Source of the DNA: Bacteroidota bacterium
Lineage (GTDB): Bacteria; Bacteroidota; Bacteroidia; Bacteroidales; VadinHA17
Assembly (NCBI GenBank): GCA_012729475.1
Contig: JAAYDB010000090.1
Location: 1-58,864, forward strand
Direction: 5' to 3'
DNA length: 58,864 nt
Below, in pieces: positions 5,862 through 15,047 of the stretch. Each line of letters opens with the position of its first letter. Within the stretch, counting starts at the first letter, position 1. The position numbers were made by a program, and so were the translations under genes. The notes beneath the pieces are model-generated. The model saw only the letters and a program-made list of their open reading frames with translations, was not told the origin of the DNA and ran no database searches.

Positions 5862-6740
5862 TTATTTCAGTTCGGTGACAACCTTATTGATTTTAGAATA
5901 CACTGTCTTATTAACAGGGACTAGAGGTAGCCTTAAGTTATTTTGACATAGTCCCTTGACACTCAGAAAGGCTTTTATTCCTGAAGGATTGCCATCTTCA
6001 AACAACAAGTTAATCGGTTCCATGAAACGGAAAAGTATTTCACGGGCAATTTTCATATTGTTTTTTAAGGCATTACTTACCATTTCACTCCATTCAGCAG
6101 GATAAGCATTTGCCAGAACAGATATCACACCTGAACCTCCTGCACTTATTATTGGAAGTGTCAGCATATCATCTCCGGAGATGACCAGGAAATTATCAGG
6201 CTTCCTTTTCAGTATGTGCATTATTTGAGACATATCACCTGAAGCCTCTTTTATTCCAATAATGTTGTCACATTCATGTGCAAGTTCAAGACATGTGTCT
6301 GAGGAAATATTACTGCATGTCCTGCCTGGTACATTATAAATGATAACAGGAACAGGACTACAGGTGGCAATTGCCTTAAAATGCTGAAAGAGCCCCCTTT
6401 GATTTGGTTTATTATAATATGGGGCTACAGATAAAATACCATCAATTCCTTCAAAATCTATTTGCTTAATATTATTAATTACCTCCTGTGTATTATACCC
6501 CCCAATGCCAATGATCAGCGGTACCCTTTTATCAATAACCTCAACAATATAGGATGTCAAAGCCTGTTTCTCGTCTGGAGTAAGGGTTGCAGCTTCTCCT
6601 GTTGTGCCCATACCAACAACGTAATTGACTCCTCCTTCAATTACATGGTTGATAATGCGACCCAAAGCTGAAAAATCAATACTTGAATCATTTTTAAAAG
6701 GTGTAACGATAGCCACACCTGTGCCTTTGAATTTTTTCAT
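5862..6740 (-). CDS. dapA: 4-hydroxy-tetrahydrodipicolinate synthase
   Basis: Condenses pyruvate with aspartate semialdehyde in the lysine/diaminopimelate pathway (cytosol). At 292 residues it has the usual length. The key residues are visible: GTTGE around 45-49, the proton-relay Tyr135 in IIYNVPGR, and the Schiff-base Lys164 in IIGIKEASGD. Together these favour true DapA over related N-acetylneuraminate or KDG aldolases. It lies downstream of the DUF6913-like gene (21-base gap) and ligA on the same strand, so the three may form one leftward transcript with dapA last. Its 3' end converges with secA. Confidence 0.96.
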   Translation of the reverse strand: MKKFKGTGVAIVTPFKNDSSIDFSALGRIINHVIEGGVNYVVGMGTTGEAATLTPDEKQALTSYIVEVIDKRVPLIIGIGGYNTQEVINNIKQIDFEGIDGILSVAPYYNKPNQRGLFQHFKAIATCSPVPVIIYNVPGRTCSNISSDTCLELAHECDNIIGIKEASGDMSQIMHILKRKPDNFLVISGDDMLTLPIISAGGSGVISVLANAYPAEWSEMVSNALKNNMKIAREILFRFMEPINLLFEDGNPSGIKAFLSVKGLCQNNLRLPLVPVNKTVYSKINKVVTELK

Positions 6741-6761
6741 AATTAGATATAATTTTTCTTT

Positions 6762-7316
6762 TTATGATCCGGATTTTATCATTTCTAGATACCGTATAAC
6801 TTCATTAAGATATCCTTCAACAACATAAGGTTTCTTCAGTTCTATCATCAGATCAAAAATTGAATTGTCTCTTGTTGCGTCAAATAATCCCACTTTCAGT
6901 CCGGCTGAAGATAAGGAAGTAACATAGGTTAAGGGAAATACATTATTAAAATTTATATCAATAAGGACATCGAATGGTTTTTTTATGAAAAAGTCACTTT
7001 CAGTCGAAACAGGTATGTAAAACAGATTGATCTCATTTCTCCTGATACAGGACAGGTATCTAAGTGCTGTATATTGATCAGGAAGCTCTTTGCCCGGATA
7101 ATATCCTATTATTTTAACTTCAATCTGTCTCTCATGCATTTTCTGGTGAAACTTAGATAAAAAGCTGAATTCTTTAATGTTAGTTGCATCCCATACAATG
7201 CCAATATCTTTAACCTGGTCGATGTTTGTAAAAGACACTTTTCTTCTTGCCTTAGCTACTCTTCGTGACAGGATTGAATTACCAAATTTTATCCTGTTGT
7301 CTTGAAATAATTCCAT
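6762..7316 (-). CDS. DUF6913-like conserved protein
   Basis: A soluble 184-residue protein with no signal peptide or membrane helix. I recognise the pattern of a Bacteroidota-restricted family of unknown function: a basic N-terminus (SRRVAKARRKVSF), then alternating beta strands and helices with 'IGIVWDATN', 'IGYYPGKELP', 'FDVLIDINF', 'VGLFDA'. No catalytic motif is evident. It sits between ligA and dapA on the same strand (47 and 21 bases). A TAGGTTTG match to the -7 promoter element lies at 7321-7328, so close to the ATG that it would give a nearly leaderless transcript; this may be chance. Function unknown. Confidence 0.8.
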   Translation of the reverse strand: MELFQDNRIKFGNSILSRRVAKARRKVSFTNIDQVKDIGIVWDATNIKEFSFLSKFHQKMHERQIEVKIIGYYPGKELPDQYTALRYLSCIRRNEINLFYIPVSTESDFFIKKPFDVLIDINFNNVFPLTYVTSLSSAGLKVGLFDATRDNSIFDLMIELKKPYVVEGYLNEVIRYLEMIKSGS

Positions 7317-7363: not shown

Positions 7364-9412
<2,049 letters not shown>

Positions 9413-10546
9413 TCATTCCCATATTCCACTTACAGGAGCTCCGCATTTATTGCATTTCCCATTATTAATATTATTCAGGGTAACTGTAAAACCCTGCCGT
9501 TCAATAACTGTATTCCCACAGGAAGGACAGTTGGTGTTAGCCTTCTCATTACCCGGGACATTACCTATATATACATATTTAAGTCCTTCTGAGTGTGCAA
9601 TATCTGCAGCTTTTGTGAGTATTTCAAGTGGAGTAGGCGGAAGCTGTTCGAGCTTATAAGTGGGATAAAACCTGCTGAAATGAAGAGGAGTGTCTCTGAA
9701 TCCGTTTTCACTCAGCCATTTACACATTTCTCCTATCTCGTCTATGTTGTCAGTCCATGAGGGAACAATAAGATTTGTTATTTCAAGCCATACACCTGAT
9801 TCTTTGAATATCTTGAGTGAATCAAGTACAGGTTGAAGTTTCCCTCCGGAAAGTCTGATGTATGTATTATCATTAAAAGATTTGAGATCAATATTTGCTG
9901 CATCGATAACAGTGCACCATTTTTTTAACGGCTCAGCATTAATGTAGCCAGATGATTTTACAATGTTCTTAATACCAGCTCTTTTAGCCAGAACAGCACT
10001 TTCAAAAGTATATTCGTAAAATGTTACAGGTTCAGAATAGGTATAGGCTATAGACCTGCATTTATGTTTTTCTGCTTCTTTTACAACTGCATCAGGCATC
10101 AGATCATAATTCCTGGTATTTTCAGGTCCGGTCTGAGATATTGACCAATTCTGACAATTCAAACATGATAAGTTACACCCGGCTGTAGCAATGGAGAAAG
10201 CTCTTGATCCAGGGAAGAAATGGTAGAGAGGTTTTTTTTCAACAGGATCAATATTTACAGAACAGGGATTTCCAAATGCCAGTGTGTACAGCTTTGAATT
10301 AAGAACCCTCCTGTTATGGCACTCACTCAATTCTCCCTCTTTGAGGATGCATTCGTTTGGACAAATCCTGCACATAATTCCCCTGGGTGTTTCTTCCTGA
10401 AACATGGCAAGAACCTTGTTGTTTTGTCCTTCAGAAATGAAAGAATCTGACAGTAAGGGACTTTTAATGCAGACAACGCCTGCAGAAAGAGTCAGGATCC
10501 TTTTGAGAAAGTCACGTTTACTTTTGTCAAAATCATTATTTCCCAT
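9413..10546 (-). CDS. AmmeMemoRadiSam system radical SAM enzyme with Tat-like signal
   Basis: A 377-residue radical SAM protein of the AmmeMemoRadiSam type, related to pyruvate formate-lyase activating enzymes. The [4Fe-4S] motif CNLSCLNC (CxxxCxxC) lies near residue 133. It is preceded by a Cys pair (CRICPNEC) plus a further Cys-His, and followed at the C-terminus by a four-Cys zinc-ribbon-like segment (CPSCG...CNKCG). The N-terminus is unusual for this chemistry: SKRDFLKR followed by the hydrophobic stretch ILTLSAGVVCI resembles a twin-arginine signal with KR in place of RR. It is the last gene of the leftward locus, 19 bases after the membrane protein, with the Memo-AMMECR1 fusion beyond. 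Family assignment is firm; export is inferred; the reaction and substrate are not known to me. Confidence 0.9.
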   Translation of the reverse strand: MGNNDFDKSKRDFLKRILTLSAGVVCIKSPLLSDSFISEGQNNKVLAMFQEETPRGIMCRICPNECILKEGELSECHNRRVLNSKLYTLAFGNPCSVNIDPVEKKPLYHFFPGSRAFSIATAGCNLSCLNCQNWSISQTGPENTRNYDLMPDAVVKEAEKHKCRSIAYTYSEPVTFYEYTFESAVLAKRAGIKNIVKSSGYINAEPLKKWCTVIDAANIDLKSFNDNTYIRLSGGKLQPVLDSLKIFKESGVWLEITNLIVPSWTDNIDEIGEMCKWLSENGFRDTPLHFSRFYPTYKLEQLPPTPLEILTKAADIAHSEGLKYVYIGNVPGNEKANTNCPSCGNTVIERQGFTVTLNNINNGKCNKCGAPVSGIWE

Positions 10547-10565
10547 GGATGAAAAATGAATAAGA

Positions 10566-12998
10566 TTACTTTATGGTACCTGATTTACCAGGTAATATAC
10601 CTGCAAAAATAAGCAATGCAAGCGAGAAAACAGAGATTCTGATGCCGAAAGCAGGGACAAGGATGCCTGCCATAAGAATAAACCCTGCAGCAGATCCCGT
10701 AAGATCAGCACTGTAAGTTAACCCTGTAGCTAAACCTGATTCATGATTTCTGGTGATAATCATAAAAATATGACCCGTAATAAATGATGGGATAAGCATT
10801 GCTATCAGCAGGACAATAACAGGAATAAAGTCGTTGTTCAGATTGAGAATGGTATTATAGCTCAATGCGGCGAAAATGTAAAATAAGGATAATACCAGAG
10901 CTTTTATTTTTAATGAATAAAAGTCGAGAATTTTGTTTTTCATTCCTGCTCCGAGCGCCAGACCCGTCATCATGGCTGCAAGTATCAGCCCTGTCAGCTG
11001 ATACATGTTTCCTGCAGCCAGCTGGAGCAATAGCAGAATAATGATCTCAAAGCCGGCAAGGGCAGAAGCACAGAAGTACATTACCAAATTACTTCTTCTG
11101 ACAGTCAGAACGGGTAGGCCAAAAACTATCACAATCAGAATAATAGCAGGAAATTTTTCTTTAAGACTCTTACTGAAGCCCAGTGATTGGTAATGATAGC
11201 AGGCAATGGGAAATGCCGAACTGTTCTCTCTTATGTCAGAATCCAGTACTGACATTATATCATCCGATCTCATTTTTATCAGATCATCGGCCAGATAGTC
11301 AGAACTCACATAAATATTGTTTATACCACGCTCTTTAAGCAGGTGACAGAATGAAAGAGATAAAGCACTGTCGGATGCAATGAAATAGAGCTTGTTCCCG
11401 GCAACTGCCAGGACATTTTTAAATTTCCCCGACAGCGTATTGTAAATAGAAGAGTAGAGATTTACAGCTTCCTGGTTTAGATATGTATCAGCTGTTCCGG
11501 GAGAACACATAAAGACACCTCCTTCAGTAAGTCTCTCTTTAATATCATTAAAAAAACCGGCAGTATAAAACCTGTTGAGCGATAATGTTGAAGGAGGAGG
11601 CAGAAGCATAATAATCACATTTGCTGTATCACCTTTTTCTCTTATAAAACGGTAGGCATCTTTGTTCTCAACAATAAAACCGATGTTTTCCGGTACTGTA
11701 ATTAATTTTGACTTCTCTGCCAGAACAGGATCCCGTTCTATATAATGAATTTCTTTCACTGGATATTTAAGTAATTCAGCCAGGCGTGATTCTGCAAAAC
11801 CTGAGATTAGAAAAACCTTCTCAGGTTTTTTTACCTGGAGTAATGCATAGTGAATATCTTCTTCCCTTTCTATTACGTCATCATTGTAGGAGAGTAGCCT
11901 GTGGTTGTAATATACACTTTCCTCTCCGGAGTACTCACCCCTGGTTATGTTGCCATAAGGGGTGTCTTTTGTTTCGGTAACATTTATCCCGGGCAGGAGA
12001 ACCTGTCTGAAAAAGACATCAGGATCAGTCAGAATAGTAACAGACAATAATACTGTGAATAATAATTTAATATATAATGATTTGGAAGGATTAGTCTGGG
12101 AAAAATTTAAAATAACCCAGGCCAGTGTTAAGAGAATTATAATCATTAACAACTTGTATGTGTTGAAAAGACCTGATGTAAGAATTGAAATCAGAATACC
12201 AGCCATTATTCCTCCGGTTGTTTCAATAGAAAATGATTTACCGGGTAAGTAATTATTATTGTCACGTGCTACAGCTATCAGTCTCACAAATGTAAAGCCG
12301 GAGATGAGACAAAAAGGTAAAAGGGAAAAGAGATTGAAAATTAAACTTAATAAAAACGAAGGTATTTCTCCCGGCTCAAGAAGAATCCCTGACAAGAGGA
12401 AAAGAAACAAAAGAGAGAGAAGGGGGGTGAGAGAGAAAGCAAGATTTATTTTAGCAATATCATTCAGGGTTGATTTTCCTGCAAGTGCCGCTCCGGCAGC
12501 AGATGTTATGAGCCATGAACCCAGATATAATCCTGAAATTAGTTCATAGCCTCCTGAAATATTGAGTACCTCCCTTAAGAGTAATAATTGTATTGAGGTA
12601 CTGGTGAAGCCAATTACAAAAAGATTGACTGTTATGGACGGTGAATTATTCTTCCTGGTGTTCCCTTCTGTTTTAAGTTTATTATTACCGGATTTTTTAA
12701 ATAATGTCCGGTAATAAGATAAGTGCCAGCCGAAATGAAAAATACCTGTTACCGCCAAACATATTCCTGTTTCGACATGCCAACTGAGTAAAAGATCAAT
12801 AACAGGAACATCCCATTTATAGTTTATCTGAAGAGCAAGAACCACTCCGGCAAGAGCAGTGAAAAGGAATGCAGTGGCAAGTATTGTATTCCATATCTTT
12901 CTGTGTGTGTTGAGTGAAAATATACCGAGTCTGTAAAGCCCAAAGCTTGTCAGATATAAAAAGGAGACTATAATAACTGTTCCTGTAACATGGTACAT
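10566..12998 (-). CDS. Polytopic membrane protein with b-type-cytochrome-like N-terminus and degenerate spermidine synthase-like domain
   Basis: About 810 residues from the ATG at 12998; an in-frame TTG at 13004 would add two residues and overlap the upstream stop codon. Regions: residues 1-105, three or four helices with His3, His32, His74, His88 and His92, where the WH-x13-H-x3-H spacing resembles heme-ligating helices of DUF4405/cytochrome b561-like proteins; about 125-325, six or seven further helices; about 345-560, a soluble Rossmann-like domain with YIERDP and LNRFYT as in spermidine synthases; about 595-810, six more helices. The usual glycine-rich SAM loop is degenerate (SGFAESRLAE) and the catalytic acidic motif reads MLLPPPST, so normal aminopropyl transfer is unlikely. 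It is tightly coupled to the Memo-AMMECR1 gene upstream. Heme binding and function are inference. Confidence 0.75.
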   Translation of the reverse strand: MYHVTGTVIIVSFLYLTSFGLYRLGIFSLNTHRKIWNTILATAFLFTALAGVVLALQINYKWDVPVIDLLLSWHVETGICLAVTGIFHFGWHLSYYRTLFKKSGNNKLKTEGNTRKNNSPSITVNLFVIGFTSTSIQLLLLREVLNISGGYELISGLYLGSWLITSAAGAALAGKSTLNDIAKINLAFSLTPLLSLLFLFLLSGILLEPGEIPSFLLSLIFNLFSLLPFCLISGFTFVRLIAVARDNNNYLPGKSFSIETTGGIMAGILISILTSGLFNTYKLLMIIILLTLAWVILNFSQTNPSKSLYIKLLFTVLLSVTILTDPDVFFRQVLLPGINVTETKDTPYGNITRGEYSGEESVYYNHRLLSYNDDVIEREEDIHYALLQVKKPEKVFLISGFAESRLAELLKYPVKEIHYIERDPVLAEKSKLITVPENIGFIVENKDAYRFIREKGDTANVIIMLLPPPSTLSLNRFYTAGFFNDIKERLTEGGVFMCSPGTADTYLNQEAVNLYSSIYNTLSGKFKNVLAVAGNKLYFIASDSALSLSFCHLLKERGINNIYVSSDYLADDLIKMRSDDIMSVLDSDIRENSSAFPIACYHYQSLGFSKSLKEKFPAIILIVIVFGLPVLTVRRSNLVMYFCASALAGFEIIILLLLQLAAGNMYQLTGLILAAMMTGLALGAGMKNKILDFYSLKIKALVLSLFYIFAALSYNTILNLNNDFIPVIVLLIAMLIPSFITGHIFMIITRNHESGLATGLTYSADLTGSAAGFILMAGILVPAFGIRISVFSLALLIFAGILPGKSGTIK

Positions 12999-13000
12999 AA

Positions 13001-14512
13001 TCAATTCCTGTTTTCTTCAAGAACGAGTCCCTCATAGATGTATAATTCAGCGCTTTTCCATCCGTCCCATCCAATACCGGCCTTATCTCTCGATGTATAG
13101 CCAAGAAACTCTTCCACAGTCCATCCGTTTTCTATTGCTACCTGTGGCAGCATTGTGCCTGAGCGCACGCCTTTCTTTATGTAGATACCATGTTTGCCAA
13201 GAATAATTTCCCGGGGATTATGGATCCTCTTAAGAGGGCCCAGTATAGTAATTTCAATATCGGTTTTTTCGAATTCTGTTTTTGTAAGCGGATTAAAACG
13301 CGGATCTTCAAAAGCAGATGACAGAGCAGATACCCGTATCACTTCATTAAGAGGATCAGTTGAGATAAATCTTCCTATACAACCCCTGAGATTGCCATTG
13401 ATTTTTAATGTTACAAAAGCACCATATTGCTTTTTTAAGGCTTCAGGGATATGAATATCGTTCAACGGGCTTGTCTTGTTTTTATCGAGCATTGATCTTA
13501 TGCTGTTTCTTGCAATAGAAAAGATAATATCTTTCTCTTCTTTTGTAAAAGAAAATTCTTCAGAAGATTCTGTTTCTAAATGTTTGGTTTTATTTTTTTC
13601 AACAAGAGAAATTGCATGATACCCGACTACTTCATTTTTTTCCCCATATTCTGAATCGCCGGAATTGCAATAGTCTATTCTTATAAATTCCAAATCTTTA
13701 TCGCTTTCTGCGAGGTAAAGAAGAGTCAAACCTGATGTCCAGCCACACATACTGGTTGCAAGTCCTGGAATATTACGGGAAGAATTTTCTTCAAGCATGG
13801 TCAGGAATTTTTCAGGATTTCCGGAAGTCAGGGCTTCAGCTGTTATATTATCTATTTCAACAGCATCATTGTAATGAGGATAGTGTGAGAAATCACTGCT
13901 TATAACAAAAAGGTTGTCAGGGGTGAACCAGGGGCGTAATGCTTCGGCTATATCCCTGATCAGTTTGGTGCTGTTTGTTCCTATCATGATTGGAACAATT
14001 TCAGGTTCTCTGGTATAATAATATTGAAATAAAGGAATTTGTAATTCCAGATTATGATCATTCAGGTGGACATCAACAGGAAATCTGAATACCTTGTTCT
14101 CAGTTTTAAGTTTATTGGCAATATTAAGGTTTACTTTTGCTCTGCCAAGAGGTGTTATAAAGTCACCTGTGTTGTATACTGATGCACCATTAAAGGCACG
14201 GACATGGCTGGAGCCTATTATGAAAATATTTTTGTAAGGTGTTTCTTTTGGAGTTGCAGAAAAGGCAGCTGCGGCTATTTTACCTGAATAAACATATCCT
14301 GCATGAGGTACAATTAATGCTCTGACATGGTTTTCCTGAGGGGTCTTTTTACAATTATTAAATAATACTGCGATATCCCTGGTAAGTGTCTCTTTATCTG
14401 CAGAGTAAAATCTTCCTGCAGCATAAGGTTTTCTGTCGGTTGATTTATCCTGGGAAAATACTTCCATTATGCTAATAGTTAATAACAATGATACAACAAA
14501 AAAAATCCGCAT
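13001..14512 (-). CDS. AmmeMemoRadiSam system protein B-protein A fusion (Memo-AMMECR1)
   Basis: A 503-residue fusion of two proteins that are separate genes in many organisms. Residues 1-20 are a Sec-type signal sequence (MRIFFVVSLLLTISIMEVFSQ, probable cleavage after FSQ). About 27-290 form the Memo domain: candidate metal ligands are His in VPHAGYVYSGK, His in IGSSHVRAF and Cys in TSMCGWTSG, matching the positions known to bind metal in Memo-type dioxygenase-fold proteins, plus SSDFSHYPHY. About 315-500 form an AMMECR1 domain with its LRGCIG signature. It is the first gene of the three-gene locus, and its stop abuts the start of the membrane protein. A periplasmic location follows from the signal peptide but is inferred. 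Substrate unknown. Confidence 0.92.
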   Translation of the reverse strand: MRIFFVVSLLLTISIMEVFSQDKSTDRKPYAAGRFYSADKETLTRDIAVLFNNCKKTPQENHVRALIVPHAGYVYSGKIAAAAFSATPKETPYKNIFIIGSSHVRAFNGASVYNTGDFITPLGRAKVNLNIANKLKTENKVFRFPVDVHLNDHNLELQIPLFQYYYTREPEIVPIMIGTNSTKLIRDIAEALRPWFTPDNLFVISSDFSHYPHYNDAVEIDNITAEALTSGNPEKFLTMLEENSSRNIPGLATSMCGWTSGLTLLYLAESDKDLEFIRIDYCNSGDSEYGEKNEVVGYHAISLVEKNKTKHLETESSEEFSFTKEEKDIIFSIARNSIRSMLDKNKTSPLNDIHIPEALKKQYGAFVTLKINGNLRGCIGRFISTDPLNEVIRVSALSSAFEDPRFNPLTKTEFEKTDIEITILGPLKRIHNPREIILGKHGIYIKKGVRSGTMLPQVAIENGWTVEEFLGYTSRDKAGIGWDGWKSAELYIYEGLVLEENRN

Positions 14513-14591: not shown

Positions 14592-15047
14592 TTATACAAG
14601 AACCATGGATTCTTTGAGAATATTTCCATTTTCATCTGTTCCGTATACTTTTATTCCCATGCTTATTGTCGGAGTGCCAACCATATCGAGTACAGGACTT
14701 AAAGCTTCTTTCAAATCCTCTGTCTCCATACTGTCAAATTCTTCTATATCAAAATACAGATGAATAATAAGTGTATTATCGGGTTGTTTCATTCCGCAAA
14801 GGGCTTTGACAATTTTCGCAAGCCATATTACGGAGGCAGTGTTAAAATATTCAATATTCAGACGCAGGTTTGTGGTTTGTCTGGGAGTATTGATATACTC
14901 CTGAACCCATTCAAGAATTCCTTCATATAGTTTTGCGGGATTTTCCAGTATCGATTTTCCTGAAAAAATAAGTTCTCCGGTCAAATGGTTAAGATCAATT
15001 TGCGGGGTCTTTTGTCCTGACTCGATATATATGGTTTTTAAATCCAC
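14592..15047 (-). CDS. SiaC-family regulatory phosphoprotein (DUF1987)
   Basis: 151 residues, GTG start, with no signal or membrane segment. The sequence fits the DUF1987/SiaC family: an N-terminal TPQI followed by a beta strand with LTGELIFSGKS, a central NTASVIWLAKI segment and the acidic LYFDIEEFDSMETEDLKE. In Pseudomonas, SiaC is phosphorylated by SiaB and dephosphorylated by SiaA and acts as an on/off partner of a diguanylate cyclase. None of those partners is encoded in the window, so the output here is unknown. It lies 79 bases upstream of the Memo-AMMECR1 gene on the same strand and could be co-transcribed; a -7 match is 48 bases before its start. Confidence 0.85.
   Translation of the reverse strand: MDLKTIYIESGQKTPQIDLNHLTGELIFSGKSILENPAKLYEGILEWVQEYINTPRQTTNLRLNIEYFNTASVIWLAKIVKALCGMKQPDNTLIIHLYFDIEEFDSMETEDLKEALSPVLDMVGTPTISMGIKVYGTDENGNILKESMVLV

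Follow-up and report, generated by a model that had tools for sequence, protein, structure and literature searches.

A candidate extracytoplasmic AmmeMemoRadiSam system with its own transporter-like membrane protein in a Bacteroidota genome

Radical SAM enzymes require S-adenosylmethionine (SAM) and low-potential electrons, and their expected place is therefore within the cell. A 58,864-nucleotide contig of a VadinHA17 Bacteroidales bacterium (GenBank assembly GCA_012729475.1, contig JAAYDB010000090.1; the whole of it is called the window here) raises the question of whether, and by what means, one of them could work outside. Between positions 9413 and 14512, the window encodes an AmmeMemoRadiSam system, i.e., a Memo-AMMECR1 fusion and a radical SAM enzyme, together with a membrane protein. 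Several lines of evidence suggest that the two soluble proteins are probably located extracytoplasmically: their N-terminal signals, the co-occurrence of such signals with the membrane gene, the predicted sidedness of the membrane protein, the variety of export routes, and c-heme or NosR-like partners in some relatives. The signals, the gene order, the predicted fold and sidedness, and the co-occurrence of signals and membrane gene are results of computation.

Gene order and N-terminal signals

All three genes are open reading frames (ORFs) of the minus strand, located where the preliminary description had placed them, and their coordinates give the transcription order Memo-AMMECR1, membrane protein, radical SAM enzyme. 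The Memo-AMMECR1 gene (14512-13001, 503 residues) begins with MRIFFVVSLLLTISIMEVFSQ. The membrane gene starts at an ATG at 12998, 2 bases past the Memo stop, and ends at 10566; an alternative TTG start at 13004 would make it overlap with the Memo-AMMECR1 gene. The radical SAM gene (10546-9413, 377 residues, N-terminus MGNNDFDKSKRDFLKRILTLSAGVVC) follows after 19 bases. The tight spacing noted earlier is therefore confirmed, as is the assignment to AmmeMemoRadiSam, since proteins A and B and the radical SAM enzyme all score above their NCBIfam cut-offs. The features of the two soluble proteins are as follows.

13001..14512, minus strand: Memo-AMMECR1 fusion, AmmeMemoRadiSam proteins B and A joined in a single polypeptide (TIGR04336, 206.8 bits, cut-off 26; TIGR04335, 152.2 bits, cut-off 99; PF01875; PF01871)
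14450..14512, minus strand: predicted Sec-type signal, residues 1-21, end FSQ (sequence; retained in relatives adjoining the membrane gene)
13613..14428, minus strand: Memo domain with PHAGY (69), GSSH (100) and MCG (255) (profile coordinates and motif positions)
13028..13519, minus strand: AMMECR1 domain with LRGCIG motif (Pfam and motif)
9413..10546, minus strand: radical SAM enzyme AmmeMemoSam_rS, 377 residues (TIGR04337, 351.3 bits, cut-off 220)
10427..10546, minus strand: Tat-like N-terminus, residues 1-40, KRDFLKR and a weakly hydrophobic stretch (sequence, alignment)
10319..10372, minus strand: N-terminal four-Cys motif, C59, C62, C66 and C76 (invariant in 15 aligned sequences)
10154..10177, minus strand: CX3CX2C, C124, C128 and C131 (invariant in 15 aligned sequences; 177/177 counted homologues)
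9443..9529, minus strand: C-terminal C2C2, zinc-ribbon-like (alignment; 171/177 counted)

By inspection of the sequence, the fusion appears to carry a basic n-region, a strongly hydrophobic core and a cleavage region. The Sec-type signal ending in FSQ that had been claimed for it is recognizable in these terms, and relatives keep such a signal beside the membrane gene. The PHAGY and GSSH motifs of the Memo domain align with MEMO1, and the Cys of MCG is assigned via the motif alone; the ligands of MEMO1 are H49, H81 and C244 (PMC11081632, in excerpt).

The radical SAM enzyme has a PF04055 match of 60.5 bits and the CX3CX2C motif, which place it in the superfamily. The four-Cys motif is found in 177/177 counted homologues, the same motif having served to locate the start of the core. 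Ahead of it, the extension is retained in homologues, some of which have a full RR: R11 and F13 do not vary between the window protein and 13 aligned homologues (46-73% identity to it), and [KR]RxF is kept while the rest of the extension varies. The genome encodes TatC and has 18 Tat-signal matches (TIGR01409) above cut-off elsewhere; eight of these Tat-signal loci were fetched, and the five among them that could be read all have RR.

The same genome encodes a second TIGR04337 protein above cut-off, which starts with MEALLYQKKDNKKVI just ahead of the first Cys and lacks the extension. Membrane, Memo and AMMECR1 genes were not found at its locus (L035), which was covered for about 12 kb in one direction and, in the other, for the 1.8 kb that remain before the contig ends. 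The genome has a single Memo match.

Co-occurrence of export signals with the membrane gene

The locus survey comprised 20 stretches (one of them the TatC locus), 80 further stretches and 80 named loci, giving 182 radical SAM rows with the window. The first 100 stretches were picked from matches in relatives and a draw from the phylum, and only part of the listed matches was taken. The named loci are the best 80 of 579 in a genome-collection scan with a radical SAM alignment of exported homologues; because of this query they are biased towards exported forms, the alignment of the membrane protein having offered no block of sufficient conservation for such a scan. Five rows were dropped owing to N gaps at the N-terminus (L128, L144) or a core below 280 residues (L121, L160, L162), leaving 177, and the repeats L133 = L165 and L132 = L167 were removed in clustering at 85% identity. 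A membrane gene was called adjacent when it lay within 7 kb of the radical SAM gene.

A signal or anchor is present on the radical SAM protein in 90/92 rows with an adjacent membrane gene, versus 25/85 without. The former comprise 87 Tat-like N-termini, 3 split forms with the anchor in an overlapping ORF and 2 without a signal; the latter, 15 Tat-like, 7 Sec-type or anchor, 3 split and 60 without. Counting split forms as signals favors extracytoplasmic location, and the adjacent-gene figure is 87/92 if they are counted as none. The contrast persists after clustering (78/80 versus 25/81), in the unnamed loci, for which no exported query was used (48/49 versus 2/48), and in the named loci alone (42/43 versus 23/37). 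The co-occurrence that the preliminary description proposed to survey is thus observed, and the paralogue in the window's own genome lacks both signal and membrane gene. Memo partners behave alike: they carry a signal in 73/74 loci with a radical SAM signal and in 7/23 without, 4 loci with a missing Memo N-terminus being omitted.

The signal rule was loosened post hoc because its first version missed six cases beside the membrane gene that were borderline but visible by eye (L037, L173, L175, L193, L228, L239). The loosened rule, which matches 87/92 radical SAM genes adjoining the membrane gene, matches 84/1051 unrelated ORFs of at least 250 residues in the same loci, up from 45/1051. It calls L240 Tat, which is Sec by eye, and calls L196 and L244 signal-free; in L196, an RREFVKK stretch that lacks a standard start codon lies just upstream, and a hydrophobic stretch is present in L244.

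Genome-wide searches for the membrane gene covered 22 of the 25 rows with a signal but no neighbor (L177, L043 and L201 omitted), with a line for strong matches of 400 bits chosen post hoc, after the scores had been seen. A match above 400 bits lies elsewhere in 16 of these genomes, 3 have weak or partial matches and 3 have none. Of 32 genomes from which all surveyed copies lack a signal, one, G194, has a match above 400 bits, and weak matches occur in 8. The same search took in four more genomes with exported copies as positive controls, and all of them gave a strong match.

In a FastTree phylogeny of 161 rows, a single clade of 122 rows (support 98) contains every exported form but the doubtful L043, and the 39 rows outside are no-signal forms except L043; FastTree was the only method, and 54/158 inner branches are weak. 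Records of the clade are labelled Bacteroidales, Ignavibacteria, Desulfobacterales, Omnitrophota, Elusimicrobia and Chloroflexi. Taxa are given as labelled, and binning of metagenome-assembled genomes (MAGs) may err, e.g., for archaeal-labelled ones.

Export routes vary within the family. The 102 Tat-like N-termini of the survey comprise 71 KR, 28 RR and 3 RK forms, with RR in some named relatives of the exported clade (Desulfobacterales and others) and KR in others. Seven proteins have Sec-type or anchor N-termini (L206, L212, L215, L224, L235, L240, L244). Six loci have a split form (L213, L219, L230, L231, L232, L237), in which an upstream ORF would supply the anchor. Three of these, L213, L219 and L230, looked like counterexamples, having the membrane gene and a short radical SAM protein, until the anchor was located in the overlapping upstream ORF. 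At the split loci, the upstream ORF holds the radical SAM anchor and N-terminal strand and shares 4-65 bases with the core ORF, which is read in a different frame (in L213, 6287-8038 and 7974; in L219, 428-2029 and 2026; in L230, 7693-7989 and 7974). Coupled translation of a split gene, programmed frameshifting and an assembly error are all conceivable causes; an error alone is less likely because there are six such loci. In L217, L223 and L226, which have neither membrane neighbor nor signal, an upstream anchor ORF was not found.

The distribution of TatC accords with these routes. Among 40 chosen genomes of named loci, grouped by eye and including MAGs that may be incomplete, TatC is present in 24/27 Tat-type versus 2/7 Sec- or anchor-type genomes (p = 0.0035); it was not found in the Tat-type genomes of L174, L214 and L228. 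L043 and L201, whose hydrophobic N-termini resemble start artefacts, were omitted. Split-type genomes depart from the Sec/anchor pattern, as 5/6 have TatC.

Some loci have unusual arrangements. L049 has three tandem Tat-type radical SAM genes and a membrane-gene homologue (7949-11766), with Memo and AMMECR1 not found in the fetched 17 kb. In L135 and L148, an opposite-strand gene for 798 residues lies between the membrane and radical SAM genes, and the Tat-like N-terminus is retained. A second, different radical SAM protein is encoded immediately upstream of the exported one in L240 (860-1807). Among the surveyed loci, L175 belongs to a bacterium in culture, Mangrovibacterium marinum DSM 28823, which has the membrane gene as well as the genes for radical SAM and Memo/AMMECR1.

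Membrane protein, adenosyl compounds and electrons

The third protein had been described as polytopic, which is correct as far as it goes; its architecture, recognized from an AlphaFold model (mean pLDDT 87.9, pTM 0.89) and fold matches, had been missed. It is modelled as a 14-helix transporter of the major facilitator superfamily (MFS) with a spermidine-synthase-fold domain inserted between the halves and an additional N-terminal three-helix module.

10566..12998, minus strand: membrane protein, 810 residues from the ATG, predicted three-helix module, MFS half, outer domain and MFS half (AlphaFold and fold matches)
12702..12998, minus strand: N-terminal three-helix module with conserved H32, H74 and H88, putative b-heme ligands (41 sequences)
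12030..12644, minus strand: first MFS half and linker helix, helices 4-10 (model and fold matches)
11247..11984, minus strand: spermidine-synthase-fold domain, predicted extracytoplasmic loop (model and fold matches)
10587..11165, minus strand: linker helix and second MFS half, helices 11-17 (model and fold matches)

Two six-helix halves are seen in the model, a fold match by itself being no proof of transport. The positive-inside rule (23 versus 3 Lys and Arg) places the inserted domain outside, and the same sidedness is obtained for 38/38 aligned sequences. The domain matches the spermidine synthase fold and departs from its active site: with residue roles taken from PMC6514230 (in excerpt), the catalytic Asp and the aminopropyl-amine residues are replaced by L465, A402 and R378, and Asp is found at the catalytic position in 7/38 aligned membrane proteins. 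The ribose- and adenine-binding acids of the adenosine site are retained (E421 in 38/38, D447 in 37/38). Besides the operon's own, the genome has one weak Spermine_synth match, and no relative of the membrane protein was confirmed in the viral contigs searched.

For electron supply, candidate modules of different kinds occur. In the N-terminal module, H32 is conserved in 39/41 and H74 and H88 in 41/41 sequences; for the module of the window protein, Pfam gives no significant match. At L184 the module is a separate gene for 109 residues adjoining the membrane gene, with a weak DUF4405/cytochrome b561 match, and separate neighboring genes with weak b561/DUF4405 matches under cut-off are found in L204 and L227. 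Four relatives (L098, L100, L227, L243), one supported group on the tree, have CxxCH between the Tat signal and the radical SAM core. As c-type heme is attached extracytoplasmically, these enzymes would be outside and heme-fed, if the motif binds heme. In L213, L219 and L230, a protein with FMN_bind, Fer4_5 and Fer4, which we take to be NosR-like from its domain order, is encoded upstream of the radical SAM gene; in L213 and L219, its ORF continues into the anchor overlapping the radical SAM gene. Operons with neither module exist, e.g., those of L189, L190 and L192, where the membrane protein begins past the module. The candidate modules listed above suggest that electrons may cross the membrane via interchangeable parts.

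Two further observations concern these loci. The Bacteroidota-side and Chloroflexi-side CxxCH records are sister groups, and transfer between phyla may have occurred. In L227, a gene between the Memo-AMMECR1 and membrane genes (6119-7246) encodes a nitroreductase domain and a weakly DUF4405-like membrane part.

Overall, these features can be assembled into an explanation that we consider reasonably probable as a whole: an extracytoplasmic AmmeMemoRadiSam system served by an outer adenosyl-binding domain, MFS transport and membrane electron modules. The Memo-AMMECR1 fusion would exit via Sec. The radical SAM enzyme would most likely be folded inside with its Fe-S clusters and then exported by Tat, perhaps staying anchored through an uncleaved signal. 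Both would act at the outer face of the inner membrane, next to the MFS-type protein, whose outer domain would bind an adenosyl compound for the enzyme, either SAM inbound or products of the 5'-deoxyadenosine or 5'-methylthioadenosine (MTA) type outbound, and whose MFS part would carry it across. Electrons would arrive via membrane redox modules, here the cytochrome-b-like three-helix module and in some relatives c-heme or NosR-like FMN/ferredoxin proteins. A substrate reachable from outside would be expected, for example a lipid, an envelope protein or the Memo-AMMECR1 site itself.

The preliminary description had already proposed chemistry on the outer face, with the membrane protein supplying electrons and perhaps SAM or a product route. 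Export of the soluble proteins and the co-occurrence of signals and membrane gene favor the location. Electron supply gains an anatomical basis in the module histidines, the four CxxCH relatives and the three NosR-like partners, and SAM handling in a spermidine-synthase fold predicted outside with its adenosine-site acids kept; beyond this, we infer that the membrane protein could handle SAM or adenosyl products and pass electrons to the enzyme. A broader generalization, less likely than not, is put forward tentatively: a radical SAM clade from records of several bacterial phyla would be exported, with KR as its normal Tat motif; an MFS protein of its own, bearing the outer SAM-type binding domain, would carry SAM out or return adenosyl products, and interchangeable electron modules (cytochrome-b-like, c-heme, NosR-like) would serve it.

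Upstream of the operon, 79 bases away on the same strand, lies a SiaC-family gene (14592-15047; PF09345, 73.9 bits) that scores below the cut-off of the NCBIfam SiaC equivalog. Small genes resembling it occur at the same place in L131, L138, L143 and L145.

Weighing the alternatives, and known systems

A number of observations weigh against extracytoplasmic radical SAM chemistry. To our knowledge, no SAM, SAM source or strong reductant has been described in the periplasm. A weakness of the Tat claim is KR instead of RR, in the window and in 71/102 Tat-like relatives. The Tat-like signal described earlier stands with respect to KRDFLKR, the invariant R11 and F13 and TatC in the genome, and falls short in lacking RR and in being absent from the genome's 27 listed TIGR01409 matches at E ≤10. 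TtrB is given as the sole known native KR Tat cargo, and a single Arg-to-Lys change is said merely to slow transport in most bacteria (PMC6708511, in excerpt); lysine changes are elsewhere described as poorly tolerated and as rescued by higher hydrophobicity (PMC5539426, in excerpt). Either KR is a normal Tat motif in this radical SAM family, or the signal is weak.

Other points in the same direction come from the survey. The membrane gene is present without a recognized signal in L143 and L218, and Memo is exported without a radical SAM signal being found in L188, L195 and L199. In the searched genomes of L191, L202 and L208, no membrane-gene match was found, and those of L176, L182 and L224 have weak or partial matches only. 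The three-helix module is fused in just 38/85 complete membrane proteins by the script criterion, L054 being one more. The survey counts are phylogenetically non-independent, and an independent-pairs test gave a median p of 0.5, with too few pairs to conclude. Twenty rows within the exported clade have no recognized signal; 11 of them sit in one 14-row group (support 85) that lacks the adjacent membrane gene. Within this group, L202 and L208 retain a Tat-like signal and L201 is doubtful. The tree pattern therefore points to mainly one old coupling with apparent correlated loss, not to many independent gains.

With location granted, the three proteins might be exported or outward-facing while the membrane protein moves the system's substrate or product and not SAM, the outer domain binding or processing another ligand; the enzyme might then use SAM loaded before Tat export, in a single turnover or a regulatory role. 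The MFS fold would suit this, as would the rarity of the catalytic Asp and the altered aminopropyl-amine residues of the window protein, and because those residues have changed, the ligand cannot be assumed. What remains, however, is the near-invariant pair of ribose- and adenine-binding acids, which suits an adenosyl ligand, and we regard this alternative as rather unlikely. It is less probable still that only Memo-AMMECR1 is outside and that the radical SAM enzyme is tethered on the cytoplasmic side with its N-terminus as an anchor. The KR motif, its absence from the TIGR01409 matches, the lack of a clear cleavage site in the window enzyme and the loci with a Memo signal but no radical SAM signal found all fit such a tether; however, N-terminal positive charges followed by a single hydrophobic segment give an N-in/C-out topology, and relatives with RR, Sec-type or anchor N-termini, CxxCH or a NosR-like upstream partner oppose it.

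That the extensions are start-site artefacts and all components cytosolic is hardly credible. ORFs were called with the longest start, which has made a few extensions (L042, L181) longer than they should be. Against this, [KR]RxF is conserved in an otherwise variable extension, signals go together with the membrane gene and with the Memo signal, and TatC is distributed accordingly across genomes; the idea was rejected on the conservation of the motif and its association with the membrane gene. Extracytoplasmic location of both soluble proteins remains the preferred reading.

Should the broader generalization hold, it would provide a first case of radical SAM chemistry outside the cytoplasm, complete with dedicated logistics for SAM and electrons. 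With a conserved clade of exported enzymes, the question of how SAM and electrons get outside would be inescapable, and the substrate of Memo and AMMECR1, both of which have human relatives, would become a testable envelope-accessible target. The family would also offer a candidate MFS protein for adenosyl-compound transport and many naturally occurring Tat-like signals of the KR form.

The trio itself is already known; what is filed here as new is an extracytoplasmic variant in records of several phyla. Burroughs and colleagues reportedly tied AmmeMemoRadiSam to nucleotide base and isoprenoid modification in 2019 in the Journal of Biological Chemistry (JBC). In open-licence PMC papers, a literature search found no report of an exported or periplasmic radical SAM enzyme, and a phrase search of open-access literature found none of MFS fused with spermidine synthase. 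Memo-Ammecr1 systems are mentioned in PMC7159879 (in excerpt), and the membrane-fused form was not seen in the excerpt of PMC11107197.

Compared with AmmeMemoRadiSam (TIGR04335, TIGR04336, TIGR04337), the window has the same three components, adjacent and above cut-off, with the radical SAM, Memo and AMMECR1 motifs; it differs in the predicted export signals on both soluble proteins and the dedicated MFS/spermidine-synthase-fold protein in the operon. Signals and membrane gene are missing from most of the cytosolic-looking copies in the phylum survey. From the membrane-bound polyamine aminopropyltransferase (PRK03612/PF01564), the window protein is set apart by its score (53 bits versus a PRK03612 cut-off of 472), the loss of catalytic and aminopropyl-binding residues and the predicted position of the domain, outside and between MFS halves. 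The MFS transporters among the structure matches (6zgs, FLVCR1, SV2A) have about 10% identity to it, and two extra central helices hold its enzyme-fold domain. NosR/RnfG-type FMN-ferredoxin carriers share FMN_bind, Fer4_5 and Fer4 with the proteins of L213, L219 and L230; none was seen in the window operon, where the three-helix His module would substitute. With Tat-exported Fe-S redox enzymes, the radical SAM family shares [KR]RxF, a weakly hydrophobic stretch, a cofactor-bearing cargo and TatC in the genome, and it differs in that the cargo is a radical SAM enzyme and the motif mostly KR.

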